Positions 2,209-25,393 of a stretch of 29,909 nucleotides of DNA are shown in pieces. The translations under genes were made by a program, and so were the position numbers. The notes beneath the pieces are model-generated. The model searched no databases and was not told where the DNA came from. It worked only from the letters and a program-made list of their open reading frames with translations. Every line of letters begins with the position of its first letter. Position 1 is the first letter of the stretch. The DNA comes from a virus: the IMG/VR virus record IMGVR_UViG_3300030099_006105, positions 1 to 29,909 of that record; one strand, given 5' to 3'.

Positions 2209-2494
2209 GAGACAATTCAAAAGATTACCTTCAGGAAAGATCTCGTATCGAGGCGAGACTTTTCCTGGCATAAACAAGCCAAAGCGAGCCCCTAAAGGTA
2301 GCAAAAAAAAGTTCATCGTTCTTGCAAAACAGGGGAATAAAATCCGCAAAATATCTTACGGGCATCGCGATTACGAAGATTTTAGAACGCACAAAGACCC
2401 CAAACGCCGAGCTAACTTTAGATCAAGGATGCGGTGTTCAACAGCTAAAGATAAAACGACGGCCCGATATTGGGCCTGCAAACACCTCTGGTAA
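2198..2494 (+). CDS. Small basic protein, DUF5754-like
   Basis: A 98-residue basic protein starting at GTG 2198 inside the end of the preceding gene. The core has KKFIVLAKQGNKIRKISYG, then an acidic/aromatic stretch, HKDPKRRANFRSRMRCSTA and a C-terminal DKTTARYWACKHLW. The order of hydrophobic strand, HKDP-R, an RxR/Cys stretch and a terminal YW-C-LW resembles proteins called DUF5754 in large DNA viruses and phages, judged from memory. Two Cys residues and the His could bind metal or form structure. The function is unknown. Together with the two genes before it, it forms a run of three small Lys/Arg-rich proteins. The stop TAA shares its last A with the next ATG (TAATG). Confidence 0.68.
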   Translation: MATKRQFKRLPSGKISYRGETFPGINKPKRAPKGSKKKFIVLAKQGNKIRKISYGHRDYEDFRTHKDPKRRANFRSRMRCSTAKDKTTARYWACKHLW

Positions 2495-3033
2495 TGAAGC
2501 GTCACTTGCCCTCCCAATTCTCAAAGGAAAAAGGGGGTAAGTTTGTGGTTTTCGAGCCTGCGCCAGAAGATATAAAAATTGCGTTCCAGCGGAGCAAACG
2601 GCAGGGGGTTTTACCAAACTCGTTTACGTATGGAGCGGGCCGCATGACCGGATTTTTAGGGGAGCTTGCATTTGAACATTTATATCCTGAGGCGTCATAT
2701 GTTGGGGGAACAAGTTTAGACCATGATTTTATTCTTGGTCGCCGAAAGATAGACGTTAAGTCAAAAACTTGTGGGTCTCCTCCTTTGCCACACTACACGG
2801 CTTCTGTTAACTGTGCGGCCAAAGTAATTCCAAAAGCAAGTTATTACTACTTTGTCCGTGTAGACAAAGATTTAACAAAGGCGTGGTTGTTGGGGTGGAT
2901 AACTAGAAAAGCTTTGCTCAATGAAGGTGAGTTTAAAAAGCGCGGCGACGAAGACTCTAGCGGTTTTATGTATCGAGCTAGTGGATATCACATTCCTCTA
3001 GAAAGATTACGATCCCCTTTAAGTTGGAAGTGA
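2494..3033 (+). CDS. PD-(D/E)XK nuclease-like protein
   Basis: A 179-residue protein from ATG 2494; a TTG at 2470 would add 8 residues but overlap the previous gene, and the TAATG junction favours the ATG. The centre fits a restriction-endonuclease-like fold: Glu in GFLGELAFEHLYP, Asp in SLDHDFILG, and the D-x-K pair in RRKIDVKSK. Strands and an aromatic stretch (ASYYYFVRVD) and a GWIT segment follow. It is probably a Mg-dependent DNA nuclease, but substrate and role (host DNA degradation, packaging, repair) are not visible. Its 3' end overlaps the convergent primase-helicase gene by 15 bases, with no terminator in between. Confidence 0.62.
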   Translation: MKRHLPSQFSKEKGGKFVVFEPAPEDIKIAFQRSKRQGVLPNSFTYGAGRMTGFLGELAFEHLYPEASYVGGTSLDHDFILGRRKIDVKSKTCGSPPLPHYTASVNCAAKVIPKASYYYFVRVDKDLTKAWLLGWITRKALLNEGEFKKRGDEDSSGFMYRASGYHIPLERLRSPLSWK

Positions 3034-5181
3034 CACCATTGCTGGAGTAATATCATACTTTTCGTCAATACTTATTGACCAAACCTTACCGCCGCCGTGC
3101 CCCACAGATTTAACTGGCCTCACGTTTGGGTTTGCTTTGCCTGCTTCTTCTAAGGCTGACATACCCCGCCGAACAAATTCTAAGTTGTTCGACATCCCCA
3201 CATTTCTTCCGTTGTTAAAATCGTGCAGAGTTACTTGAAACTCTGTAAGGGTTCCTTCCCATTGCTTTATTGAGTCGTTTAATGAACGACATCTTTTGGC
3301 AAAGAACTCAACTAGTTCCGCCACCGACGACCTGCTCGAGTTGTCGTATGCGGCTGACGCAACCGCGATGTCAATAAAGCTATTAACGCCGAACCGGCCA
3401 TACGATTCTATTTCTTGTGGGACTTCCCAATCCATGAGCCACTTCCCAAGGTGGGGTAATTCTCTCCAGATAGTCTCTTCTAAAATTTTATTTGCTGGGA
3501 ACTTGCTTGTAGCTTCATCTCTTACTTTTAAAGCTATGAGCTTATCCCGATTACTGCTGTCCAAGGCCGGTATCACAGACAAGCTATTTGCGTCCATGTT
3601 TAAGGACATGATAACTCTACCGGCCCAAGGAATAGATAAGGCATCAGCATACTTAGCCATGTATTCTATACGTGGATTAGCGACGGCCCTTTTTATTAAC
3701 TCCGTAGCTTTACGCTGATCTTGGAATGAACTGGCACTTGTCGTGTCGTCGATGACCCAAGCAGCTACTCGACCAAGGTCTTTGTTAAACTTGGTGTGTC
3801 CCGATAAGTAATCCGAAGCGTCAGAGAATCCTCCAACCAATCCAGAGATGACCCTGTTTGATAGTAAGCTTTTGCCTTTGTTCGTCGGGCCCACAAGAAT
3901 AAGTGCCTGGCCCTGCTTCGGTTCTCTTTCCAAGACAGCCTCATAAAATCTCTTCATCCACGCAAAGAAATATTCGACAGTGGGCCTGTCAGTAGAGTTC
4001 TCGAATAGTTGGGCAAGCCACCCGTATAAGAAAGGCCAGTGTTCTTTAGCACCGCTTTCAGCCGGTTCTACAGGCTCAATCATAGATGTATTAAGAATCC
4101 TGTTCCCACTACATTCTACAATTCTTTCTTTTGAAAACACTACGGGGGCGATTTCGTGGATTCTATTTTGATTGCTGATGACAAGAAGGGCCGACTCTAC
4201 TTCCGACAAAGGAACACCTTTCTTCTTCTTGGGACTAAATCCCAGTTGTCTTAGCTCTAGTATTATTTGGTCTCTGGGAATTTGAACCGCGATATTGTTG
4301 AGCAGTTTAAAAAATGTTTTTCCATTGAACCAATACTCATCCAAAAGATTCCCCATCTTCTTTTGTTCGTAGTCAGATACAAATTCGGCTCCAAAGATAT
4401 CCCTCCATGTTACGAATCCCCTACCAGCACGGTCGCTGTAACAAATCATCCCATCCTCCGAGACTTGAGCCCCCTCTCTATCGATACCATCATCAATCCA
4501 AAACAAAGGACCTCTGCACCCTACTTCAAATTCTCCTCGCCAACGATGCCCATAGGTTTCGGCTACCTTAGCCGCAATGACCTCGATGGGGATCGCGGTG
4601 TCTTTACTCTGAGGAGGCGCTACATTCGCTGCTTTCAACAGCGCCGTCTGTATCACACTGTCTGGCAAGGGGTCTCCTATCTTTGTCCAGTCTTCTCCAA
4701 GCTCGAAATATTGAGCCGCGTTTAAAGAAGTGTTGTCAAAGCCCGCGAAGACTTTATGCGCTTGGAGAATATTTTTTAACTCGTTAAAGAAAGCAGAAAA
4801 CATATCAGGACTAATAGGGACGGGTGTGTCAAACTCCCATACTAGTCTTATGTATCCTGAGTGCGTCCTAGACCTCCATGTCGGAAGTTTATCTTTGCAC
4901 ACCGTTTTTATTTTGAGTTCTACCAAGTTCCAATCTACCGGGGCATCGTAGTCGATCACCATGCCGTGCGCTACGTTGACGGGATTGTCGGCCGATATTC
5001 TTTTCGACGGGGCTCTACCTTCTAGGGCTGTGTAGAATACATGATTGGTGGTATCTGTGGCGCACCATGCTCTATAGTCAGCCTTGTTTTGAAATCCAGG
5101 TTTTTGTGATTTTAGAGACGACAGGTCAGAGCACTTTTGCGCTGAAGCATCCCTAAGGTTTTTTATATATCGGTAAGTCAT
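3019..5181 (-). CDS. Primase-polymerase / SF3 (D5-like) helicase
   Basis: A 720-residue fusion-type replication protein. The N-terminal third looks like an archaeo-eukaryotic-type primase-polymerase domain: Asp77-Tyr78-Asp79 in MVIDYDAP is the candidate metal-binding pair, followed by WRSRTHSGYIRLVWEF and a later AAQYFELGEDW. A linker region with RGPLFWIDDG follows. The C-terminal half is a superfamily 3 helicase, with Walker A GPTNKGKSLLS (Lys437), Walker B AAWVIDDTTS (Asp478-Asp479) and a sensor-like IMSLNMD. The layout matches phage primase-helicases such as the NrS-1 type and D5-like proteins. It should make primers and unwind DNA at the fork. It is the last gene of the leftward replication block; its ATG overlaps the polymerase stop (ATGA at 5178-5181). 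Confidence 0.85.
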   Translation of the reverse strand: MTYRYIKNLRDASAQKCSDLSSLKSQKPGFQNKADYRAWCATDTTNHVFYTALEGRAPSKRISADNPVNVAHGMVIDYDAPVDWNLVELKIKTVCKDKLPTWRSRTHSGYIRLVWEFDTPVPISPDMFSAFFNELKNILQAHKVFAGFDNTSLNAAQYFELGEDWTKIGDPLPDSVIQTALLKAANVAPPQSKDTAIPIEVIAAKVAETYGHRWRGEFEVGCRGPLFWIDDGIDREGAQVSEDGMICYSDRAGRGFVTWRDIFGAEFVSDYEQKKMGNLLDEYWFNGKTFFKLLNNIAVQIPRDQIILELRQLGFSPKKKKGVPLSEVESALLVISNQNRIHEIAPVVFSKERIVECSGNRILNTSMIEPVEPAESGAKEHWPFLYGWLAQLFENSTDRPTVEYFFAWMKRFYEAVLEREPKQGQALILVGPTNKGKSLLSNRVISGLVGGFSDASDYLSGHTKFNKDLGRVAAWVIDDTTSASSFQDQRKATELIKRAVANPRIEYMAKYADALSIPWAGRVIMSLNMDANSLSVIPALDSSNRDKLIALKVRDEATSKFPANKILEETIWRELPHLGKWLMDWEVPQEIESYGRFGVNSFIDIAVASAAYDNSSRSSVAELVEFFAKRCRSLNDSIKQWEGTLTEFQVTLHDFNNGRNVGMSNNLEFVRRGMSALEEAGKANPNVRPVKSVGHGGGKVWSISIDEKYDITPAMVSLPT

Positions 5182-10845: not shown

Positions 10846-12633
10846 ATGTCCGTTTCAAAGAAATCCATCAAGCAGATACTAGAACCGCACATCGATGCGG
10901 AGACTAAGAAGATGGACGTAGGTGGGTTAATGATACCACCTACGAGTGCGTTAACTGGCTTGCTTTATGGTTTTGCACACCATGAAAATTTACGTGCGAA
11001 GGAATACTACTTTTGGCGCATTTGTGACGAGCTATGGAACCATGATGAATTGCCGGAACCTTTGATGGTTCGTCATCCTTGGGCGGAGCAAATGATTTGG
11101 GCTGCTTTGAATAACAAGTATTTAGCAATCGGGGGCAGCGCATCATCTGGTAAGAGTCACACTATGGCGGCATGGGGTATTGTTAATTGGCTGTCCCAGC
11201 CCAAAGACACACTAGTCTTGATGACTTCGACTACCTTACGGGAAGCCCGTAAAAGGATTTGGGGTTCTGTCATGTCTTTACTGTCAGTGGTTGAGGGTGC
11301 CCCGATCAAGATTCGGGATTCAATCGGATCGGCTGCGTATGTTTCTGAAAAGGGGACTTTGATAGAGCGTGCTGGCCTATCGTTGATCGCGTCCGAGCGG
11401 TCTAAGACACGCGAGGCTGTGGGCAAGCTGATCGGTATTAAAGCTCGTAGGACGCTGCTCATTGCGGACGAGCTATCTGAGTTGTCAGAAAGTATTCTGC
11501 AAGCTGGATTGACCAACCTGTCAAAGAACCCTGAGTTTCAGCTCATAGGCATGAGCAACCCCAACAGCAGGTTTGATGCTTTTGGAGTGTGGTCCGAACC
11601 TATTAATGGGTGGGACTCAGTGGACACAAACAATCAAGACGACTGGACAACTAAATGGGGCGGGGACTACATCCGATTAGATGGAGAAAGATCCCCCAAC
11701 ATACTGGCCGGAGAGGTCTTGTATCCGTGGTTACCTACAGAAGAAAAGATTAATGAGGACAAGGCGTTGCTAGGGCCTGAGTCCCGAGGCTACATGCGGA
11801 TGGTTCGAGCTGTTTTCTTCGACAGCGATGAGACCCAAGGCATATACGGAGAAAACGAGCTAACCATAAGTAAGGCTATGAGCCAGGTATCGTGGAAAGG
11901 GCAACCAATCTATTTGGCTGGTATTGACCCCGCCTTTACCAACGGCGGTGACCGAACCATTTTGTTCACGGCGGCTGTTGGATACGACTCGACGGGGCAA
12001 TTTGTAATCGAGTTTGGGGAGTCGATACATCTTAACGATGATGCGTCGAACAAGGCTGTTCCTCGCACATATCAAATAGTGAGACAAATCAAAGAGCACT
12101 GCACCAGAAGAAATATTTTACCTGAGAACGTGGCCGTAGATGCCACAGGAGCCGGAGCACCTTTTTGTGACGTATTGGCCGGTGAGTGGTCGGATCGATT
12201 TCTAAGGGTTAGCTTTGGTGGCAAAGCTAGTGACCGTCGTGTTAGTGCAAATAGCAAAGCAATTGGAGAAGAATTGTATGTTAATCGAGTCTCGGAGCTT
12301 TGGTTTGTAGGAAAAGAGCTGATGCGAACTCGTCAAGTATTTGGCATCAAGCACGATTTAGCCCAAGAAATTACCAGCAGAAACTACGATTTAGTCAAAA
12401 GCGGAACTCTTCGGGTCAAAATAGAGTCTAAACAAGAATTCAAATCCCGCTTTGGAAAAAGCCCTGATTTAGCAGACGCCGCGTTTCTGGCTTTGGATTT
12501 AGCTAGGCAACGTCTTGGGTTAGTCGCCGTGGATCCACCTAATGAAGCGGAGAAAAACAACCCGCGCCAACGCCGAACAATTAAATCTCTCAGGAGGGCC
12601 TTACAAAACAACGATGCGGTTTTGCTGGATTGA
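10846..12633 (+). CDS. terL: Terminase large subunit, ATPase and nuclease
   Basis: A 595-residue DNA-packaging motor. The ATPase domain has Walker A AIGGSASSGKSH near residues 93-105 and Walker B LLIADELSE (Asp208, Glu209). The C-terminal RNase H-like nuclease has Asp361 in LAGIDPAFTNGGD, Asp432 in VAVDATGAG, and Asp541/Asp544 in SPDLADAAFLAL, the acidic residues expected for metal-dependent cutting of concatemers. It docks on the portal and pumps DNA into the prohead. Length and architecture are those of full-length phage TerL proteins, with no intein or break. The next genes are not portal or capsid genes, which is unusual. Confidence 0.94.
   Translation: MSVSKKSIKQILEPHIDAETKKMDVGGLMIPPTSALTGLLYGFAHHENLRAKEYYFWRICDELWNHDELPEPLMVRHPWAEQMIWAALNNKYLAIGGSASSGKSHTMAAWGIVNWLSQPKDTLVLMTSTTLREARKRIWGSVMSLLSVVEGAPIKIRDSIGSAAYVSEKGTLIERAGLSLIASERSKTREAVGKLIGIKARRTLLIADELSELSESILQAGLTNLSKNPEFQLIGMSNPNSRFDAFGVWSEPINGWDSVDTNNQDDWTTKWGGDYIRLDGERSPNILAGEVLYPWLPTEEKINEDKALLGPESRGYMRMVRAVFFDSDETQGIYGENELTISKAMSQVSWKGQPIYLAGIDPAFTNGGDRTILFTAAVGYDSTGQFVIEFGESIHLNDDASNKAVPRTYQIVRQIKEHCTRRNILPENVAVDATGAGAPFCDVLAGEWSDRFLRVSFGGKASDRRVSANSKAIGEELYVNRVSELWFVGKELMRTRQVFGIKHDLAQEITSRNYDLVKSGTLRVKIESKQEFKSRFGKSPDLADAAFLALDLARQRLGLVAVDPPNEAEKNNPRQRRTIKSLRRALQNNDAVLLD
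10917..10944 (+). repeat. 9-bp inverted repeat in the early terL coding sequence
   Basis: CGTAGGTGG at 10917-10925 pairs perfectly with CCACCTACG at 10936-10944 across a 10-base A/T-rich loop, 72 bases after the terL ATG. It lies about 100 bases from the terS start. It could be an RNA hairpin affecting terL translation or a DNA site, since phage packaging sites often lie near terS. No further evidence is visible. Confidence 0.55.
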
Positions 12634-15034: not shown

Positions 15035-18000
15035 ATGTCTGAGCTTCTTGATTTTATCAACCGCGTTGAAGCCGCCGAAGGGCAGGCAGAATTAGTTCAG
15101 CCGAAAGGCTACTCCGAATGGTCCCAAGAAAATACCTTCGATGATAAACTCGAGAGTCGGGTTCGATACGGGGATTACGTTCGGGAACAGTATATTGACA
15201 ACGACGCATACAATGCTGAGATAGAATCTCAGATTTTTGAAGGTTACACGGCGTCTCTTATTCAAGACGGAGTTCTTTTAGAGGACGGTTCAAACGCAAC
15301 GGAGGTCGATGAGCTGTCAAAAAAGTATGATTCTCGAGGATCTTTTGACGATCAAGCAAAGTTCTTTAGAGATTCTCTTGATTCCCGATCTGACGATTGG
15401 AAAACACTTACTAACTATCTTGCGGCTACAAATGTAGCTGACCCCACAGAGGACTATCTTAACACTACGGTAGCCAATTTAAGAGAAGAAGCGGAGGAAG
15501 TTCTCTCTAAAAATTACGACCGTCTTTTAGAGCAAAAAGTTGATTCGGGAGAACTAGCGGTTGCGAAACTCTCTTCAGGGCAACTTTACATCGGGGATTC
15601 CATTGAAACAATGGGCACCGTTGCGGCCTTAAAACAAGGAGCACCGACGGGAGTCACAATGCGTGACGCTCTAAAACTGGATCAGCTAATGCAAAACCCA
15701 GAGGGGTATGACATACCGCTGTATAAGCTTCTTAAAGTAATAGAAGTCAAAAAAGCAATCGATGATGATCTTCGTCTTAATGAAGAATTTCAAATTATTG
15801 CCGAGGGGGTAACGCGGCGAGCGGGAGATAAAGAAGATAAAAGCTTTAGTGACCGAGCGTTTGGGTTGTTTAGAGGGGCATTTAGACAATTTAAAAAAGC
15901 GTTTCATTCCGCAGCGCACGGCGCGAATCCGCTTGCCCCTCCGACATTCCTTCTAAGAAAAGGGATGGAGGCGCGGGGAGTGGAAATCCCTGAATATGAA
16001 GTTAGCGACCCGGAAAAAAGGTTGCAGGCTGTAGATAGGGCGAAGGGGACTAAACTTGAAGACTTAGTATCAGAATACTCGGATAGGCTTGGGTTCAATC
16101 CATCTGATGTAATGCCTGCACTGAAACAATCCCTCCTAGAGTATGGAACTGAGAAAGGATTTTACAGGTTCCACGAAGACGAAGAGGACTTAGGTAAGAA
16201 TATTCGTAAAGGAGGTTTCGGACTCCCATATGTACCCACTCAATTGTCTTTCAAAAAAGATCTTTTTGAGAAGGCATTAGCTGCTCGAAACGACTTAACA
16301 CCGGAGATTAAAGAAGCTCTAAGTGTGCAAAGAGTAGAACGCTTAAAAGCAGGTTTTCAGCAGACTAATGATTTTTTGCTTACTACTTACAAAGCAAACG
16401 ATTGGTCTAATGCGGTACTAGCCGGGCAACAAGCGGGCTTACAGCCATATGAAATATTAGAAGACTACTTAGCCGACGACGATAATTACAGTCATTTTGG
16501 AAATAGGGCGCTAGGGTTAGGGTTTGCTGCGCTTGATACTATAGCAGCCTTGCCTATGGCTGTCGGGGGCATCTTTGATAAAGAAGCCTCGGCTGAATAC
16601 TTTTCAGGTATGGCCGACATGCGGGCTAAACGAAGGCGCGTGGCGGCGATGTTTGGGGATGAATACGGATTTGTATCCGAGTTGGCTGAAACAGCATTGC
16701 CGATGGTAGGAGACATCGCGGCTACCGCCATGATAACAGCCGCTACAGGAGGTGCCGGGGCAGGAGCTGGAGCAGCCTTGTTTGCTGCTAGGACAGCCGC
16801 TAAGTCCGGCGCAAAATTTACACTCTCCGGATTTGGTAAAGCTGCGGTAGGTCAGACGTTTAAAACCAGTGCGGTTCGGGATAGTAAAAGTTTAGCTGAT
16901 GAGCTTTTAAAAGCTGGCGTGGTAGGCACCAGAACAAAGACCGGTGTCAAAAAAGTTACTAAAGACGGACTTGATGAGGCTAGTGATAGCCTTACTAAGA
17001 AGTTAATCCTAGTTTCCGACCCAGACAAAGCAGCGTCTCAGTTGACCAGCTTTTTAGATGACTTTAATAAGAAGCATATAGCCCGAGTAATGGGGGACAT
17101 GATTGGGCCTTCGACGATGCCGTTAATGGCAACGGCTGGAACTAGATCGGGGTCCGCTACATATGGCCAGGTATACGGTCAGTTGATCGATGAAGGAAAC
17201 TCTAGAGAGGAGGCCCACGACAAGGCGTTAGGGGCGGCGATGCAAGCAGGAGCATTCACGGGTATTCTAACTGCATCGTTTTCTCGAATAGGCTTCGGAG
17301 GTTTAGAAAGTGTTCTTGGTAGGGGGCTCAGTTACTCTCAATTAAACAAAGTGGGTGACTTTTTAATTAGCAAAGCTAAAGGTATAAAGGGCACCTTTAA
17401 AACTACGACCGGAGAAAAAGTTAAATTTTCAGACTTACTCGAGGCGGAACTAAAGGAAAATCTTAAAAAGTCTGCGGGGTTAGCTGGAGCAGCTAAAGCT
17501 GTATTTTATCCTGCCGGGCAAGAGGCCGTTGAAGAAGGCATCGATGAACTGGTTACAAGCATGTTTGCTGACGCGGCTCTAAACGAGAATGCTCCTTTAG
17601 AACAACAACTAAAGCAGACCTTCATGGCAGCTATGATGGGTGCTGCATTAGGGGGAGCAGTTCCAACAATCCAAGCCGCTAAACGCCTTATCAGTCCAAA
17701 TGTTGCTGACGCTCGAAGGTCTGCAATGGATTCTTTAATCGTAGCCGCCGCGTCAAAGCTTGAAGCCAGCGATAGCAAAGAAGCAGCGAAGGCTCTCAGA
17801 GAGCAGTTTTTAAACCTTGGTAGATCTAAAGAACAAAATCTAGATGAGAGGGTTGCCCTGTCCTTGGCTAGGGGGCAGGGAGTTACTCAGGAGACTGAAA
17901 CAACAGAAGCAGAAACTCCCCCTCCTCTTCCTGTAAGTGACACGGCAACGACCGTTGAAGAGTCCGCTGAAAATCTATCAGAGCCCACGCCAACAGTTAC

Positions 18001-21000
18001 CCCTACTCCGGAGGACACGACTTCTCCTGTAGAGCCTGAAGTAAATGCGGAGTCCGTGCCGGAGACACCCCGTAAGGCACCGGCCCCTCAAAGGGGTGCC
18101 GCCCCTCAATTAGCCGACGTAGAAAGTAAGCTCGCAAAAGCAGCTCCCAAGCCGGTTCACAATGGGCTACAACGAGAAGTTAGATTCGCAAGTTTGCTAG
18201 ATAAGGCCGCATATATCGTTCGCCGTAGTAGCAAGAGTAGATCAAAGAACTTTGATGCTTTTTTGAACTATGCAATGCAACAATCAGGAATGACCGAACA
18301 ACAAGTTCGGCAGCACGGGGACGAAGTTAATACCTATATTGCGAATAGAGCCGAAGAGGGTGGGACCGTATTGGAAATCCCTGCGTTGTTTACCAACAAA
18401 GAGCAAGCAGCGGCTCCGCCTCGGGAGCAACTCGAGTTAAATCTAAAGGACGAAGCTAGTCCCAAGTCCATTAGGTCCGCCTTAGCTGCCGTCACCTCAA
18501 GTGCAACAGTTGATTCTGAGACCGTTAGCCCCCGAGTATTGGCTAGAAAGCGGGGGCTTGCTAGTGGTCTGGGGGCAGATCCTGTACAAAACAGTGCGGT
18601 CGAAGGATCAGACCATCAAGCTTTCAGAGACACTGCCGCAGGGTTAGAAGGCGTAGTTTATTCGGAGCCAGAACCCTCGACTATACTGGAGCAAGATCCA
18701 GAGAAGTCTGAGCAGGCTGAACAGATAGAGCAGACTTTTACTGACAAAGTAAATGAAGTCAGACAAGCAGAGGCGGAAGAAACAATTACTCCGGAGGAAG
18801 CAAAAGCTCAAAAACGCACGGCGTTCCGAGAAAGAAACAAATCTCTGAATGCCCTCCGTGTGCCTCGCACCGTTGAGTCAAATGAAGAAGTTGATCCGGA
18901 AGAAGATGCTGCCGTGGACCGGCTTATTGCAACAGGGTTCCCGTATGTTCTCACTCCAGCTAAGTTAGCCAGGCTTGGGGTGCCGGTTTCAGAAAGAACT
19001 TTGTCAAAGAAGTTTATTGAAGATAGTAACGCCAAGATCCAAAGAGAAACTTCTAGAAGGTTTCCTGTGACGGATGTCAAAACTCCCGAAGGTGGCTACG
19101 CGGTGACTACGCTTACTGATGTAAAAGCACAAGTAGGCCCCGACCAAGTGGGCATTTTTAACAACGACCCACAAAGCATGGCTACGTTGATGGAGCAAGG
19201 AACCCCAATCCGGGTTCCGGAATCCGTAATCAATGCTACGACAACAAACCCGTCGTTTAGGTTTGCTCAGATTGGAGATCAATTCGTTGTGTCGGATATA
19301 GTTCTATCAGAGTCCGGAGGACAAGTATCCGCCCTCGCGCCCTCCGACAAAGTTCTTACGCTCCGCGAAGACTACTCCACGCTCCAAGGTCTAATCGAGC
19401 AAGTGGCCGAGATTAGAGAATCAAGATCCGCAGACCAAGACGCTACTACTCTTATACGATCTCCGTTCGACAACGACCAAGAGATCACAGTCGAGGAGGC
19501 ACTGGATCTGTTATCCAATGAAGAAAATCTCCGCAGATTTATTCCCGAAAGCTTGACTCCTACCGTTGAGCAAACGGCTCTTCTCGACTTGCAACTCAGG
19601 GGGATGAACGCCGTGATGCGGGGGCAAGAGCCGTCGATGATATCGCTTGGGCGTGAGATAACGCAAGAGTATACGAAGATGCAAGACGCGCGTTCAGAGC
19701 ATCTGAAGCAGTCATATATTGCGACCGTTCCGGTAGATGCCGCCCCCGCACTCGAGCAGAACGAAAACTTCTCACCTGAACAGGAAATATCAGATCCGTA
19801 TCAGCCGTTCCCCGTGCTCCCTGCGGAGCAACTACCTACACGTAAGATTGCTTCAACGATCAAGGATGCCCAAGACCAAGCTATTGAAGCAATGGCGGCA
19901 GACCCCGAAATCCGCGCGGCTGTTCTTAATATCCTCGAGCAAGAAGTTTATCAGTCGTCGTCGATTAACTTCTCAAAGATGACGAATAAAGAAGCTTGGG
20001 GGCTATTTACTAACTGGATGGCACAAGGCAACAATCAATCTAATGTTGTTAGCTTAGATTTCCAACAGGCCCTGAAGACAGACTTGTTTGAGATGGGAGC
20101 CCCTGTTCGTAAGGCCCTAAATATATTGTCCCTGTCAGCGAAGTCTGTTGAAGGAGACCCGATGCAGGATTCCGGATACCGGCAAACCTTTGAAGTTAGC
20201 TTGCAGCAACTACTGGGGAGAACTCCGACCCCTCCAGAGATAAACGCATTCATTGCGTCGATTGAAAAAGCAAAGTCTGACCTATACCTGAGATCAGAGA
20301 ACGCGGATTTTAGTCTCGAGGAGATACAGGAAGCTAACCTCGAAGAGATATTGGCGCTCGGTTTAGAAAACAACAATCCGGACAGCATCCTCGAGGCGCT
20401 ACGGCGAATTATCGAATCGTCTTCAGAAGCAGAGTCTGAATATGACCAGCATCTAGTTGTCTTGGCAAGGTTGCTCATCCAGAACCCCAGCTTTTTGGCA
20501 GACCTGTCGTTTACAATCGACCGGACGAACTTGGACTACGCAGGACGTATGCGGATTCAAGACGACGGGACTCGGGCAATATCAATCAATATCAACGGTA
20601 GAAACCCGAGAGGTGTGGCCGACACACTTTTACACGAAGTGACTCATGCTTATGTCTCGAACATAACAAGGAAACCCAAGGCAGAACTGACTAGACGCGA
20701 GCGTTCCGCTTTGGCAGTTCTCGACAATGTTCTGAACCAAGTCAGGGAACAGTTTTCCAATCAGTCAATGGGGGGCTTTGGAGGCACGACATTTGTCAGC
20801 ACGGGATATGATAACCACGACTCTAGAATGTATGATGCCCTAGAGAATGTTGACGAGTTTATCGCGCACTTTCTGACGAACATTAAGTTCCAACAGGCTG
20901 TTAAAGTTCTATCCGACCCCTCTCGAGCAGTTGGTGTCCGTAAGCGCAACGTGTTTGAAGTGATCATCGACGCAATCTTGGGGCTCTTCCCTAACCTTGC

Positions 21001-24000
21001 TCGAGCACAATACCCTAAGTTCAGGAAAGCATTTTCCGCAGTCCTAGACCTCGCACATACTTCGGTATTGGCAGGGCTACCGAACACAAAACGAGCTGCG
21101 TCAATGTCTACACAAGACTTCGCTAGTTTGCAAAGGGATGGAATGACGGCGACAAAAGAAATTCCACCAAAGGCAAAGAAGTATATCGCAAACAGGGTCT
21201 TTAAGACTCAGGCCGTGACCCCGCAACCAAGCTTGGCAGTCCCACTTACTTCCAGCTCGCTAGCTAGCAATGCCGCCGAGAAAGTTTCTTCGGATCGTCG
21301 GTCCACTGTGGGTTTGTCCTCTGGTTTGGAAGGAGCAACGGGAACCGAAAGAACCGCAAAGCAAGAGCATGAACAGCGCAAGCAAGAATATGCGGATCTC
21401 GTAAGGCGCATTGTTCCTCCCGATATTGAAGTGCAGGTGGACGAAACCATCAAAGGACAGGCAGAGGTTGACGTAGAGACTGGCGTAATGAGGGTCAACC
21501 CGAACAAGATCATTGAATACTTGCAGTCCCTTGTAGAAAGAAACGGTGGCGAACCAGTCCCCGTTCGAGAGATAGTTGAGGTTGTAATCGACGAAGAGAT
21601 CTCTCACGCCGCATCCGTGGCCGCGTTATCCGAAAGTGAGATAGACGCTATTTCATCCGCGTTAACCTTGTCAGATGTTAATGAAGTCTTAGCACAATAT
21701 GGCAACCAAGATTCAATTCGAGAGGATTTGAAAGCCCGGTTCCTTGAAGGGGATCCGGATGCCAGACTCATTATAGCCGAGGAGATGCTTCGGATATTTG
21801 GGCAACGGTCCCGGATGGGGTTCACAACAGAAGAGCAGGCAGAATTCTTGTCCCGAAATCCGGGCAACAAAGACATTTTGATGCGGTATCTCAAAGGCCA
21901 CTTCAGACGTAAGAAGTTTGAGAGAAACATGAAGAACCTGTCCCCGAAAGTTAGAACGGCTATCGAACGGACTAGGATACAGCTCAGAGCGTTACAGGAA
22001 GGGTATGTCTATAAATCCCGCGCATTGCAGTTCGACCCAGAAAATCCTGCGGCCACGATAGAGGAGTTCATGCGGCAGCTTGATATTAACAACCGAGTAG
22101 CCGCAGGCGTAGACGCCCCACAACCGGAAGAAGATCAGACCGCCCCGGCAAGAGCGGCTAGCGGCCTTGGGATCAATGCACAAACTGAAGGGGCCTCAGA
22201 TTTTCCTGAGTCCTTAAATGTAGATGACGACCTGATTGACTTCAATCACATGGAACTTTTAGAGATCCCTGTTATTGCTAAAACAGACGCCGCCTATGAA
22301 AAATCGAAGAGCCTGTTCTCGAAGTTATTTGTAAGGACAGCGGATCCTACGGTTGTCAGGTTCTTGCGTGAGCGTGATAACTTTATTAAGGCTAACGACA
22401 ATCTGATTGGCCGCTTCTATCAGAGCTACAAAGAAGCGATGAAAGAAGAGTTCGGGGACAACGTGCCCCCGTCTGACGATATCTTCTGGACTATGCTGCA
22501 ACAGGCCACTGGTTCTAGAACCGTCGTCCCGGACGAAGCTCGTGTCAAAGAGTTAGAAGATAGCATCGCTCAAGCGAGCGCGGTCATAACAATTAACAGA
22601 GACCAAGGCATTATAGATGATGCTGAAGCTGAGACTCAACGAGCAGCTCTCAGGGCTCGACAAGCTGAAGGGATGCAAGACCTCAGAGTGCAAGCCCGAG
22701 AGAAAGCAAAAGCCGAGAGAAATGAAGGACTACAATATCTGAAGGATACTCACAGATCGGTATACACCGTGGTGCTTAACCTTCGTAATTTAACAGATAA
22801 GATGTCCGCCTCCGCAAAGGTCTTGTTCGGGGGAGACGGAGTTGATTTGAGGTTTGATAACCAGATGGGGGTCTACATCACGCGGACTTACCAGATGTTT
22901 ATGAATCCGGATTACATCGACATGATCAAGACTTCGGATTCAGCGGAGGCCGTCAATATACGACAGGCTGCAATCCAGTTCATGCGGGATGTCTTTATCT
23001 CTCAAGAAACTCAAAGGCTGATCACAGAAGGGGCCACTGTTTCGGAAGCCGAGCAGCAAGCCAAGCAGTTGTATGATGAAGCTGAAGTCGGGGGCGCTAG
23101 CAAAGGGCACCAGATGATGATTGAGTTTCTCGATGCTTATGGCAGCGCGAACTCAGCTCGAGACTTCGCGGATGCCTTTGACCTGGCAGAGGGTTCCGCA
23201 ATCCGGATCGAGGGTACATCGGATGGTCTCAAAGCTCTTGTAGATAATCTGAAGAAAAGAAAAGAGCTACCCGAGGCACTGGCTAACTTGATGGGGGCAA
23301 ACAACATCAAAGAAGACAGCGTCAACGACCTCGTTTACTCGTTGGGTATGGTGAGCCGTATCGCCGCGCACCAGTCATTTCTTCAGAAGCTAAAGGCACA
23401 AGGTCAAGCGGGGGGCTGGCTGCTTACAGCCCCACAAGTAGAAGAACTCAAAGAGAGTAACTTTGCTGAAGGCAGTAAGTATAGAAGAGTTAAGAGCGAT
23501 AAGGCCGACATGGGTAACAACCCCCTTGCAGATCTTTACGCAACAGAAGACATCATAGAAGAACTTAAAGTTCTCATGCAGCCGATCTCCCGGACAGGGA
23601 GTGACGCCACCTCGCAGACCCTGAACAACATCATGGGCTACATGCATAAGTTCACGGGCTATTCAATGGGGGCTAAGACCCTGCTGTCTTTCGGATTCTA
23701 CCTACGTAACGCACTGTCGAACATTATGTTCTTTGGTCCCGCTCAAGGATTCTATGGGTCCTTTAGGTTGCTCAAGATCGGAGGCAAGTATGGGGCAGGC
23801 GATATGTTTAGACGGGCTATCGGGAGTGGCAGCGTGAGAGATACGGACGCTTACCTATCTCGGCTCGAAGCTACCGGAGTATTCGGCAACGAGATTCGTT
23901 CTCAGATTATGATCCGCCTGATGCGCGGAGAAGAATCCATGAACAGCTTGCAAGCTAAACTGAGTGAGCTATCGAAGCAGGCCAAGAACCCTAACGTAAC

Positions 24001-25393
24001 GGGTGCCGCTCTAAGACAAATCAGAGATAACCTTGGTCGGATCGCATCGGCAATGGATTCTTTCTACAAGATTGCTTACTTCGAGCATGAAAAGAAAGTC
24101 CTGCTTGAAGCACGGGCGCACGATATAAAAACAGGCAAGTTCAACAAAGAGAACCCGCCGCCCTCTGATACTCAGATAGAGCAGGACGCTGCCGATATCG
24201 TCAGTGCTACCGCGCAATCCTATGACCGGGCTCTTCCGATTATTAAGAAAATAACTACGGAGACTAATTTTGGATTGCTGTTTGCTCCGTTCATTCGATT
24301 CACCGCAGAGATCCCCCGCATCACCGCGAATACAATTCGTCTCGCGCGGAAGGAAATGAAGTCGGATAACCCAGTCATCCGGGCACGGGGGAAGAAGAGA
24401 ATAAGAGGATTTATAGGGACCGTGGGTCTAGTAAGCATGGTCCTCCCTACATTGCTGAGAGCAGTAGTCGGCGGGATCGGTAGAGACGAAGACGAAGCAA
24501 TACGAGCATCTCTTCCCGTCTACCTGAGAAACCACACGTTCTTCTACTTCAAGCGACCAGGATCAGATCAGCTAAGATCTCTTGACCTGACTTACATGAA
24601 TCCGTTTAGCATGATTGCGGATCCCTCGCTCCGATTTATGGAGCACTTGTTCCGAGGAGAACCAATTGAAGGTGTGCAGAAGGCCGTGATGACTGGAGTG
24701 TTCGCTCCATTCTTAGGGCAACAGATACTATCGGGAGCTGTATTTGATGTCTTAGAAAACAGGCAAGCCTCAAACGACGCGCCGATTTACGAAGAGTCTG
24801 AAGACTTTAACAGCAAGATTGGTAAGTCTCTGGGCTACATTCTCCGGGAAGCCTACGGGGGAAGAACTCCTAAGAAAGTCATGGAGGCATATCGCACGGC
24901 CGTCGAAGGGGGCGAGGCGCACTTCTTAGATTCGCCTATGGGTCTTATCTTGCAAGAGGCAATGCCAGTTACGTCACGCCCGGTTGATCCTAAGAGACAG
25001 TTTGAGAGAACCCTTTACGCCCTCCGGGATGAATACAGCCGGGCAAGGCGGATGTATAACGAGCTAGGAGCGGACAAAGCAATGTCCGATAAACAAATCG
25101 CGGATCTCTACAAGGATACAAAGGAACGAATGATGGAAATCAACGCATCACTCGGGACTGCCATACGTGGGTTCGGTTCGTTTATGTCCGAGGGCGAGAT
25201 GTATAGAGCCATGCGGAAAGCAAAGTATGGCGAGACCAGATCGCAGTTGTTGTTCGCGGGGTATCAAGAAAGATACCTGCCATCAAAACCATTGATGCAG
25301 CGCCTAGTGCAAACTCCTAATGGAGAAGCTAGGCTTAGGAAGCTGTTGGAAACTGCAATGCAGGATCCAAGGTTTATAGAGATTGATCAGTAG
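15035..25393 (+). CDS. Giant multidomain 'large polyvalent' phage protein with zincin domain
   Basis: One unbroken frame of 3,452 residues. Residues 1-480 are charged. Hydrophobic Gly/Ala-rich segments lie near 489-512, 552-589, 736-756 and 861-882. A Pro/Glu/Thr linker spans about 952-1022, followed by a small helical module at about 1046-1112. A zinc-metallopeptidase motif follows: His1867-Glu1868-x-x-His1871 in LLHEVTHAYVS, with Glu1941 in ENVDEFIAHF as probable third ligand. A second, altered site is Glu2187-Glu2188-x-x-His2191 (VIDEEISHAA). The C-terminal part has MGVYITRTYQMF (about 2611), LLSFGFYLRNALSNIMFF (about 2890) and a hydrophobic GFIGTVGLVSMVLPTLLRA (about 3125), patterns I associate with phage large polyvalent proteins. 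Such proteins are thought to be carried in the capsid and injected with DNA. I see no N4-type RNA polymerase motifs. The leader lacks a Shine-Dalgarno sequence. Confidence 0.88.
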   Translation: MSELLDFINRVEAAEGQAELVQPKGYSEWSQENTFDDKLESRVRYGDYVREQYIDNDAYNAEIESQIFEGYTASLIQDGVLLEDGSNATEVDELSKKYDSRGSFDDQAKFFRDSLDSRSDDWKTLTNYLAATNVADPTEDYLNTTVANLREEAEEVLSKNYDRLLEQKVDSGELAVAKLSSGQLYIGDSIETMGTVAALKQGAPTGVTMRDALKLDQLMQNPEGYDIPLYKLLKVIEVKKAIDDDLRLNEEFQIIAEGVTRRAGDKEDKSFSDRAFGLFRGAFRQFKKAFHSAAHGANPLAPPTFLLRKGMEARGVEIPEYEVSDPEKRLQAVDRAKGTKLEDLVSEYSDRLGFNPSDVMPALKQSLLEYGTEKGFYRFHEDEEDLGKNIRKGGFGLPYVPTQLSFKKDLFEKALAARNDLTPEIKEALSVQRVERLKAGFQQTNDFLLTTYKANDWSNAVLAGQQAGLQPYEILEDYLADDDNYSHFGNRALGLGFAALDTIAALPMAVGGIFDKEASAEYFSGMADMRAKRRRVAAMFGDEYGFVSELAETALPMVGDIAATAMITAATGGAGAGAGAALFAARTAAKSGAKFTLSGFGKAAVGQTFKTSAVRDSKSLADELLKAGVVGTRTKTGVKKVTKDGLDEASDSLTKKLILVSDPDKAASQLTSFLDDFNKKHIARVMGDMIGPSTMPLMATAGTRSGSATYGQVYGQLIDEGNSREEAHDKALGAAMQAGAFTGILTASFSRIGFGGLESVLGRGLSYSQLNKVGDFLISKAKGIKGTFKTTTGEKVKFSDLLEAELKENLKKSAGLAGAAKAVFYPAGQEAVEEGIDELVTSMFADAALNENAPLEQQLKQTFMAAMMGAALGGAVPTIQAAKRLISPNVADARRSAMDSLIVAAASKLEASDSKEAAKALREQFLNLGRSKEQNLDERVALSLARGQGVTQETETTEAETPPPLPVSDTATTVEESAENLSEPTPTVTPTPEDTTSPVEPEVNAESVPETPRKAPAPQRGAAPQLADVESKLAKAAPKPVHNGLQREVRFASLLDKAAYIVRRSSKSRSKNFDAFLNYAMQQSGMTEQQVRQHGDEVNTYIANRAEEGGTVLEIPALFTNKEQAAAPPREQLELNLKDEASPKSIRSALAAVTSSATVDSETVSPRVLARKRGLASGLGADPVQNSAVEGSDHQAFRDTAAGLEGVVYSEPEPSTILEQDPEKSEQAEQIEQTFTDKVNEVRQAEAEETITPEEAKAQKRTAFRERNKSLNALRVPRTVESNEEVDPEEDAAVDRLIATGFPYVLTPAKLARLGVPVSERTLSKKFIEDSNAKIQRETSRRFPVTDVKTPEGGYAVTTLTDVKAQVGPDQVGIFNNDPQSMATLMEQGTPIRVPESVINATTTNPSFRFAQIGDQFVVSDIVLSESGGQVSALAPSDKVLTLREDYSTLQGLIEQVAEIRESRSADQDATTLIRSPFDNDQEITVEEALDLLSNEENLRRFIPESLTPTVEQTALLDLQLRGMNAVMRGQEPSMISLGREITQEYTKMQDARSEHLKQSYIATVPVDAAPALEQNENFSPEQEISDPYQPFPVLPAEQLPTRKIASTIKDAQDQAIEAMAADPEIRAAVLNILEQEVYQSSSINFSKMTNKEAWGLFTNWMAQGNNQSNVVSLDFQQALKTDLFEMGAPVRKALNILSLSAKSVEGDPMQDSGYRQTFEVSLQQLLGRTPTPPEINAFIASIEKAKSDLYLRSENADFSLEEIQEANLEEILALGLENNNPDSILEALRRIIESSSEAESEYDQHLVVLARLLIQNPSFLADLSFTIDRTNLDYAGRMRIQDDGTRAISININGRNPRGVADTLLHEVTHAYVSNITRKPKAELTRRERSALAVLDNVLNQVREQFSNQSMGGFGGTTFVSTGYDNHDSRMYDALENVDEFIAHFLTNIKFQQAVKVLSDPSRAVGVRKRNVFEVIIDAILGLFPNLARAQYPKFRKAFSAVLDLAHTSVLAGLPNTKRAASMSTQDFASLQRDGMTATKEIPPKAKKYIANRVFKTQAVTPQPSLAVPLTSSSLASNAAEKVSSDRRSTVGLSSGLEGATGTERTAKQEHEQRKQEYADLVRRIVPPDIEVQVDETIKGQAEVDVETGVMRVNPNKIIEYLQSLVERNGGEPVPVREIVEVVIDEEISHAASVAALSESEIDAISSALTLSDVNEVLAQYGNQDSIREDLKARFLEGDPDARLIIAEEMLRIFGQRSRMGFTTEEQAEFLSRNPGNKDILMRYLKGHFRRKKFERNMKNLSPKVRTAIERTRIQLRALQEGYVYKSRALQFDPENPAATIEEFMRQLDINNRVAAGVDAPQPEEDQTAPARAASGLGINAQTEGASDFPESLNVDDDLIDFNHMELLEIPVIAKTDAAYEKSKSLFSKLFVRTADPTVVRFLRERDNFIKANDNLIGRFYQSYKEAMKEEFGDNVPPSDDIFWTMLQQATGSRTVVPDEARVKELEDSIAQASAVITINRDQGIIDDAEAETQRAALRARQAEGMQDLRVQAREKAKAERNEGLQYLKDTHRSVYTVVLNLRNLTDKMSASAKVLFGGDGVDLRFDNQMGVYITRTYQMFMNPDYIDMIKTSDSAEAVNIRQAAIQFMRDVFISQETQRLITEGATVSEAEQQAKQLYDEAEVGGASKGHQMMIEFLDAYGSANSARDFADAFDLAEGSAIRIEGTSDGLKALVDNLKKRKELPEALANLMGANNIKEDSVNDLVYSLGMVSRIAAHQSFLQKLKAQGQAGGWLLTAPQVEELKESNFAEGSKYRRVKSDKADMGNNPLADLYATEDIIEELKVLMQPISRTGSDATSQTLNNIMGYMHKFTGYSMGAKTLLSFGFYLRNALSNIMFFGPAQGFYGSFRLLKIGGKYGAGDMFRRAIGSGSVRDTDAYLSRLEATGVFGNEIRSQIMIRLMRGEESMNSLQAKLSELSKQAKNPNVTGAALRQIRDNLGRIASAMDSFYKIAYFEHEKKVLLEARAHDIKTGKFNKENPPPSDTQIEQDAADIVSATAQSYDRALPIIKKITTETNFGLLFAPFIRFTAEIPRITANTIRLARKEMKSDNPVIRARGKKRIRGFIGTVGLVSMVLPTLLRAVVGGIGRDEDEAIRASLPVYLRNHTFFYFKRPGSDQLRSLDLTYMNPFSMIADPSLRFMEHLFRGEPIEGVQKAVMTGVFAPFLGQQILSGAVFDVLENRQASNDAPIYEESEDFNSKIGKSLGYILREAYGGRTPKKVMEAYRTAVEGGEAHFLDSPMGLILQEAMPVTSRPVDPKRQFERTLYALRDEYSRARRMYNELGADKAMSDKQIADLYKDTKERMMEINASLGTAIRGFGSFMSEGEMYRAMRKAKYGETRSQLLFAGYQERYLPSKPLMQRLVQTPNGEARLRKLLETAMQDPRFIEIDQ

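Follow-up and report, generated by a model that had tools for sequence, protein, structure and literature searches.

A giant phage protein that shares its zincin with the N4 virion RNA polymerase and probably belongs to an ejection set with other cargo

What kind of protein is encoded by a phage gene of 3,452 codons, and where would it act? The question is raised by IMG/VR record IMGVR_UViG_3300030099_006105, which was analysed over its whole length of 29,909 bases (the window). An earlier note, made from the letters alone, had proposed a packaged and injected effector with hydrophobic N-terminal segments, a Pro/Glu/Thr linker, two zincin-like sites and a C-terminal region typical of large polyvalent proteins, distinct from RNA polymerases of the N4 type. 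The unbroken 10.4 kb frame was found exactly as described there (Table 1). In a 60.6 kb relative (G001, IMGVR_UViG_3300030012_003336), the whole gene was present in the same neighbourhood, with 3,486 aa and 89% identity to the giant. Compared with G001, dN/dS was 0.18 overall and about 0.02-0.2 in most windows along the gene. The giant is therefore a selected gene, and a chance frame is excluded.

Table 1. Features of the giant gene and of its upstream neighbours; positions are those of the window, residue numbers those of the giant.
Feature	Position	Strand	Basis or remark
Terminase large subunit (TerL)	10846..12633	+	phrog_2, E 3e-14; 74-100% identity across 80 contigs
Gene A, 441 aa	12674..13999	+	position kept across the lineage; putative third ejection protein
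Gene B, 330 aa	14006..14998	+	directly upstream of the giant; position kept across the lineage; putative second ejection protein
Giant ORF, 3,452 aa	15035..25393	+	ATG start, no internal stop (ORF listing)
N-terminal module, aa 1-930	15035..17824	+	in all 41 lineage giants >1,900 aa; probable ejection/conduit part
Hydrophobic segment, aa 492-510	16508..16564	+	mean hydropathy 1.73
Pro/Glu/Thr-rich linker, aa 945-1040	17867..18154	+	composition; edge of the exchanged block (divergence breakpoint)
Junction peptide ASGLG, aa 1176-1180	18560..18574	+	junction motif
Gluzincin metallopeptidase domain, aa ~1800-2010	20432..21064	+	active-site conservation, HHalign, model topology
HEVTH zinc-binding/catalytic motif, aa 1867-1871	20633..20647	+	conserved motif
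DEF motif with third zinc ligand E1941	20852..20860	+	conserved
Junction peptide SSGLE, aa 2095	21317..21331	+	ASGLE in G001, ASGLG in G004/G005
Zincin-like domain with EExxH, aa ~2120-2260	21392..21814	+	predicted not to be a canonical protease
Junction peptide ASGLG, aa 2375-2379	22157..22171	+	here G003 has ~1,400 and G004 ~275 extra residues
C-terminal module, aa ~2430-3452	22322..25390	+	found at the end of ~45 phage giants
Most hydrophobic segment of the giant, aa 3130-3148	24422..24478	+	mean hydropathy 1.87; within the C-terminal module

Whole-protein scans of the giant against Pfam and PHROGs gave no domain family above threshold (no Pfam match at E<=0.01). The neighbours recognised by PHROGs were an endolysin, a primase, a PolA-type DNA polymerase, an exonuclease, a RuvC-like resolvase, TerL and a helicase, the latter among the opposite-strand genes downstream of the giant. 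Portal and capsid of the near-complete 60.6 kb relative were found neither by PHROGs nor by Pfam, and both genes were called by eye. A search of isolated phages at the DNA level and with the TerL and portal proteins gave no match. Adjoining the endolysin, positions 1215-1526 encode a stand-alone zincin-like protein of 103 aa with the motif HEMLH (phrog_1233, E 3e-13; weakly Peptidase_M78/DUF6782-like); the giant's zincin matches phrog_1233 as well, weakly.

The lineage is widespread. A TerL search of IMG/VR returned 153 matching stretches, 80 of which were fetched (74-100% identity), and the order TerL, gene A, gene B, giant recurred in about 50 related contigs. Most contigs with enough DNA past TerL carried gene A (~250-710 aa) and gene B (~300-440 aa), followed by the giant, whose N-terminal module and first part of the centre were found in all 41 lineage giants longer than 1,900 aa. 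Absence of the C-terminal module from most lineage loci is uninformative because these loci end short of it. Neither gene A nor gene B had a significant match in Pfam or PHROGs. One sub-clade (L116, L117, L119, L120, L123, L132 and L133) kept the gene order but lacked HExxH over the giant's first ~2,200 aa; its zincin may be lost or lie further along. TerL relatives occurred in two metagenome-assembled genomes only (L173/L174, labelled Blastopirellula, 85%, and Opitutae, 73%), possibly as host hints, possibly as binning contamination, and they are too thin for naming a host.

The first of the two zincins proposed in the note is genuine. H1867, E1868 and H1871 of its HEVTH motif were invariant (37 of 37 lineage sequences), and the third ligand E1941 was present in 36 of the 37. 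A low-confidence model of the region showed the gluzincin order of a helix, three strands, the HExxH helix and the Glu helix. When this model was compared with the PDB, minigluzincins reached the top probabilities (abylysin 0.75, selecase ~0.5, jannalysin 0.47). By E-value no match attained significance, and a small number of unrelated folds also came close to 0.55. The lineage zincin profile matched the N4-type virion RNA polymerase (vRNAP) family in HHalign (97.2%, E 4e-11), hit the HExxH of N4 gp50 with 20.0 bits (maximum of 200 shuffles, 3.8) and gave 50.9 bits with the N4-like Acinetobacter phage nACB1. Among 35 distant giants, 27 contained HExxH, against 0.7 expected from shuffles. Judged by these profile comparisons, the giant's zincin is a homologue of the N4 vRNAP zincin. 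Both the HExxH with a Glu third ligand looked for in polyvalent proteins and a zincin of the N4 type were thus found; zincins of polyvalent proteins have been proposed to process their own chain (Iyer et al., PMC5512222).

The second site, at aa 2187-2191, reads EEISH. Its zincin-like strand/helix arrangement was seen in a low-confidence model, so that this part of the claim held, but the first ligand was never His: position 2187 was E in 27, K in 6 and R in 1 of 34 lineage sequences. It is for this reason not a canonical zincin site, and with the His missing a second active zincin protease is not supported. The second Glu or the His of EExxH was also missing in 8 of the 34 sequences, and a comparison with other zincin groups by hhalign found nothing. 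The giant of the window contains one recognisable enzyme, the zincin, and a degenerate zincin-like domain. Of the membrane passage, proteolysis and other activities that the note had it combine, proteolysis alone can be recognised in it; membrane passage would be a task of its hydrophobic parts, and GNAT and ART-like cargo was seen in orthologues.

The likeness to N4 gp50 goes beyond the homologous gluzincin. Both proteins have ~3,450-3,500 aa, both genes come third after two smaller ones (gp52-gp51-gp50 in Schitoviridae), and both follow a layout of a hydrophobic N-terminal part, a cargo middle and a large C-terminal part. The middle differs, however, since the window giant has other domains there and no RNA polymerase core. 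Neither Pfam nor PHROGs matched such a core in the giant, phmmer with the N4 core found nothing significant in the proteins of the window, G001, G003, G005 and phage Y3, and the lineage mid-profile reached 0.3% against the N4 core in HHalign. The claim that the giant is not an N4-type RNA polymerase was borne out by all of these comparisons. The N-terminal module resembled that of N4 without significance (HHalign 7%), and for the C-terminal module, homology to the C-terminal domain of N4 vRNAP was rejected (hhalign probability 0.1%). Because the two terminal modules are without significant N4 homology, 'N4-like' rests here on the zincin and the gene layout. In N4 and DEV, three ejection genes lie in one operon; two of the products form channels in the outer membrane and the periplasm, and for the third, a giant, passage across the inner membrane has been proposed (PMC12633501, PMC10925440).

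A link to virions was provided by the C-terminal module. This part of the giant matched Cellulophaga phages phi18:3, phi19:3 and phi13:2 (E 3e-8 to 2e-6), and the closest C-terminal match among isolated phages was Pseudoalteromonas phage vB_Pun_Y3 (28%, E 3e-27), whose bridging protein belongs to PHROG 22602, 'virion structural protein'. The record of phi18:3 gp123, annotated as a virion structural protein, bears the remark 'annotation based on experimental MS/MS proteomics analysis'; its alignment to the giant covers only the C-terminal ~650 residues (aa 2612-3267 against 1183-1713) at ~22% identity. Like our giant, gp123 and its counterpart phi19:3 gp129 (Pachyviridae) are giants with the module at the protein's end, and they likewise come as the last gene, in their case after virion proteins of ~230 and ~500 aa that were detected by MS; unlike our giant, gp123 has 1,935 aa, a different middle and no HExxH zincin. 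The Y3 proteins WPJ21802/WPJ21803 share the module and an HExxH zincin in the upstream part, but they carry ddrB-ParB (as annotated) and ART domains and have a dissimilar N-terminal half. In the Y3 genome (OR779980.1, L004:345-13719), WPJ21802 has, immediately ahead of its divergent tail, ~315 aa that recur unchanged as the first ~315 aa of WPJ21803; this tandem duplication of ~1 kb may stem from faulty assembly, by which a single gene of ~4,100 aa was split. The published vRNAP label of Y3 ORF30 received no support from the comparison with the N4 core.

A five-sequence alignment of the C-terminal part retrieved 46 further viral contigs, three of which were the Cellulophaga phages again. In ~45 distant relatives, a giant ORF of ~1,900-4,000 aa always finishes with the module, which usually lies 100-220 aa from the end; ORFs present in full length measured ~1,900-3,700 aa. 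Other module-bearing giants contain ART-PolyVal, LPD1, LPD3, LPD5, LPD23, MuF_C, InPase or ddrB-ParB domains, and the module therefore belongs to giants of the polyvalent type. The C-terminal region is thus shared by many large polyvalent proteins, as the note had it, but it does not match a Pfam LPD family: no Pfam family covers the module, and a search of the giant for LPD38 was negative, the controls being equally silent. Structure prediction, suggested in the note for every piece, yielded two models, of the C-terminal part and the zincin region, both of low confidence. The C-terminal AlphaFold model was all-helical (pLDDT 60) and had no meaningful match in the PDB; a search of solved structures with the C-terminal alignment found none either.

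With the polyvalent proteins of Iyer et al. 2017 (PMC5512222) the giant shares, besides this module, the zincin as a hub domain, its place among late or virion genes (TerL-A-B-giant) and the GNAT and ART-like cargo of its orthologues. It differs from them in that it has no curated LPD or other polyvalent Pfam domain, in that its module has no Pfam family and in a repeated SG(L/I)(G/T) peptide. As a mark of giant virion proteins across many unrelated phages, the module could be of use in annotation.

At the other end of the protein, a hydropathy scan of the N-terminal module (aa 1-930) indicated moderate hydrophobicity. The N-terminal hydrophobic segments of the earlier note are present but weak (aa 492-510, and aa 863-881 with a mean hydropathy of 1.31), and the strongest segment of the giant is C-terminal. 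At the end of the module, residues ~801-887 have homologues in the N-terminal parts of distant giants (HHalign 93.7%, E 2e-7). The Pro/Glu/Thr linker was confirmed by its composition, with 17 P, 14 E and 15 T among 96 residues. Compared with G001, dS exceeded 1 in aa 1-900 of the giant, was mostly 0.02-0.35 elsewhere, with 0.08-0.35 for most of the remaining giant, and dropped again at this linker. Gene B had 57% amino acid identity with a dS saturated along the whole gene, and in gene A dS was 0.6-1.5 over aa 1-300 whereas aa 301-441 were 99% identical (dS 0.02). Gene A is hence a mosaic with a sharp recombination edge in its interior. The jump in dS across aa 1-900 of the giant, gene B and aa 1-300 of gene A means that this block was replaced by a diverged allele. 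The N-terminal module moves as a block together with the two genes upstream of it, as expected for interacting parts.

The centre is variable in another manner. Orthologues found via the zincin differ between the centre and the C-terminal module, where G003 (4,966 aa) has ~1,400 extra residues with GNAT, methyltransferase-like, ASCH-like and ART-like pieces and a further zincin (HEIVH...DEF). The GNAT domain (PF00583) of this orthologue, L071/G003, scored 22.6 bits against a Pfam cut-off of 20.7 and was the sole domain past its cut-off; the methyltransferase- and ASCH-like pieces rest on weak matches or on inspection by eye, and both the ART-like domain and the zincin were called by eye. An SG(L/I)(G/T) peptide recurs at the boundaries of the central block and of cargo cassettes. 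The pieces of G003 are separated by (A/G/L)SGL(G/M)(P/A), in six copies against 0.7 expected by shuffling, and in L102 a junction-type peptide at 879 and at 2174 flanks a block spanning 883-2178. G004 and G005, ~97% identical here, differ by one cassette, which in G004 has the same ~14 bp (TTCAGGGATCACGG) at both ends; G005 has a single copy, slightly changed.

Taken together, these data make it probable that the giant is an ejected polyvalent virion protein akin to N4 vRNAP, the third member of an A-B-giant ejection set, with other cargo instead of the polymerase. We infer its packaging, ejection, membrane conduit, protease substrate and order of steps as follows. The giant would be packaged in the head, the C-terminal module serving packaging or docking in the virion, and its ejection into the cell would precede or accompany that of the DNA. 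Together with the products of genes A and B, the N-terminal module would build a conduit through the envelope. The middle would be the cargo: an RNA polymerase in N4, here the gluzincin, the degenerate zincin-like domain and unassigned domains, while cargo in this slot of sister phages also includes a GNAT acetyltransferase, ART-like domains and one more zincin. After entry, the zincin may cut its own flexible junctions or host proteins. The note's idea of a packaged and injected effector gained ground from the MS/MS-detected C-terminal homologue, the TerL-A-B context and the N4-homologous zincin; judged by homology and context, the giant is probably packaged in the virion and injected.

Alternatively, the giant could act during assembly, its zincin being a procapsid protease for head maturation or self-processing, with little of the protein entering the cell. 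P1 DdrB is indeed processed before packaging, and the N4 region including the zincin is needed for encapsidation (PMC5512222); furthermore, a separate prohead protease was not recognised in the 60.6 kb relative. We nevertheless hold this to be unlikely, since N4 vRNAP is packaged unprocessed (PMC5512222) and the variable cargo cassettes suggest activities after entry.

The great length, the hydrophobic segments and the rank of largest late protein would also suit the tape-measure protein of a long-tailed phage with an embedded zincin, and tape measures can include peptidase domains. Yet no tail-tube or tail-chaperone gene was recognised adjoining the giant or in the 60.6 kb relative, and cassettes of ~270 to ~1,400 aa, gained or lost between sister phages, would alter tail length. 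Homologues moreover occur in the podovirus-like Y3 (PMC11654794) and in Pachyviridae, whose Gundel is podoviral (PMC8776804), so that a tape measure appears very unlikely.

There is a similarly slight chance that the giant is made after infection and takes over the host without being packaged, to which the opposite-strand genes (helicase) that come next and a GNAT or ART cargo, fitting an intracellular effector too, would correspond. Against it stand the place of the giant after TerL and A-B throughout the lineage, the detection of a C-terminal homologue in virions by MS/MS and the conserved hydrophobic terminal modules, of no evident need to early intracellular proteins. A diverged N4-type virion RNA polymerase with its core beyond recognition, which the homologous zincin, the similar length, the similar three-gene layout and the naming of Y3 ORF30 as an RNAP (PMC11654794) might suggest, is most improbable in view of the negative Pfam, PHROG, phmmer and HHalign comparisons of the core.

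An ejected polyvalent protein of this kind would bring together polyvalent effector proteins and the giant polymerase ejected by phages such as N4, two themes that are usually handled separately: zincin and overall layout are found here with other cargo where N4 has its polymerase. New features are the repeated SG(L/I)(G/T) peptide, the gain or loss of one cassette at a ~14-bp direct repeat and the exchange of the N-terminal module with gene B and much of gene A as a block.

The junction peptides deserve a closer look. The copies in G003 have the DNA TCAGGGCTC in common, whereas the three copies in the window have the same peptide with different codons. Together with the cassette ends of G004 and G005, this suggests recombination at the junctions and some selection on the peptide, the selection being judged from few copies. 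The peptides are natural candidate sites for cleavage by the zincin. A more daring and, to our mind, doubtful extension is a self-processing ejected polyprotein whose zincin cuts the SG(L/I)(G/T) junctions and thereby frees separate effectors in the host cell, the cassettes being swapped at the short direct repeats that encode these junctions. If true, a junction would serve both as the protease's site and as the seam for recombination; in any case the peptide offers a concrete prediction of what the zincins of polyvalent proteins cut. The peptide was not seen in the more distant half of the lineage. A search for junction motifs in other distant giants gave a clear repeat of its own (KFSIxxP) in L035/L036 only, with four to five copies in aa 821-2894 of the L035 giant, and repeated junction peptides may thus be a wider habit of giants.
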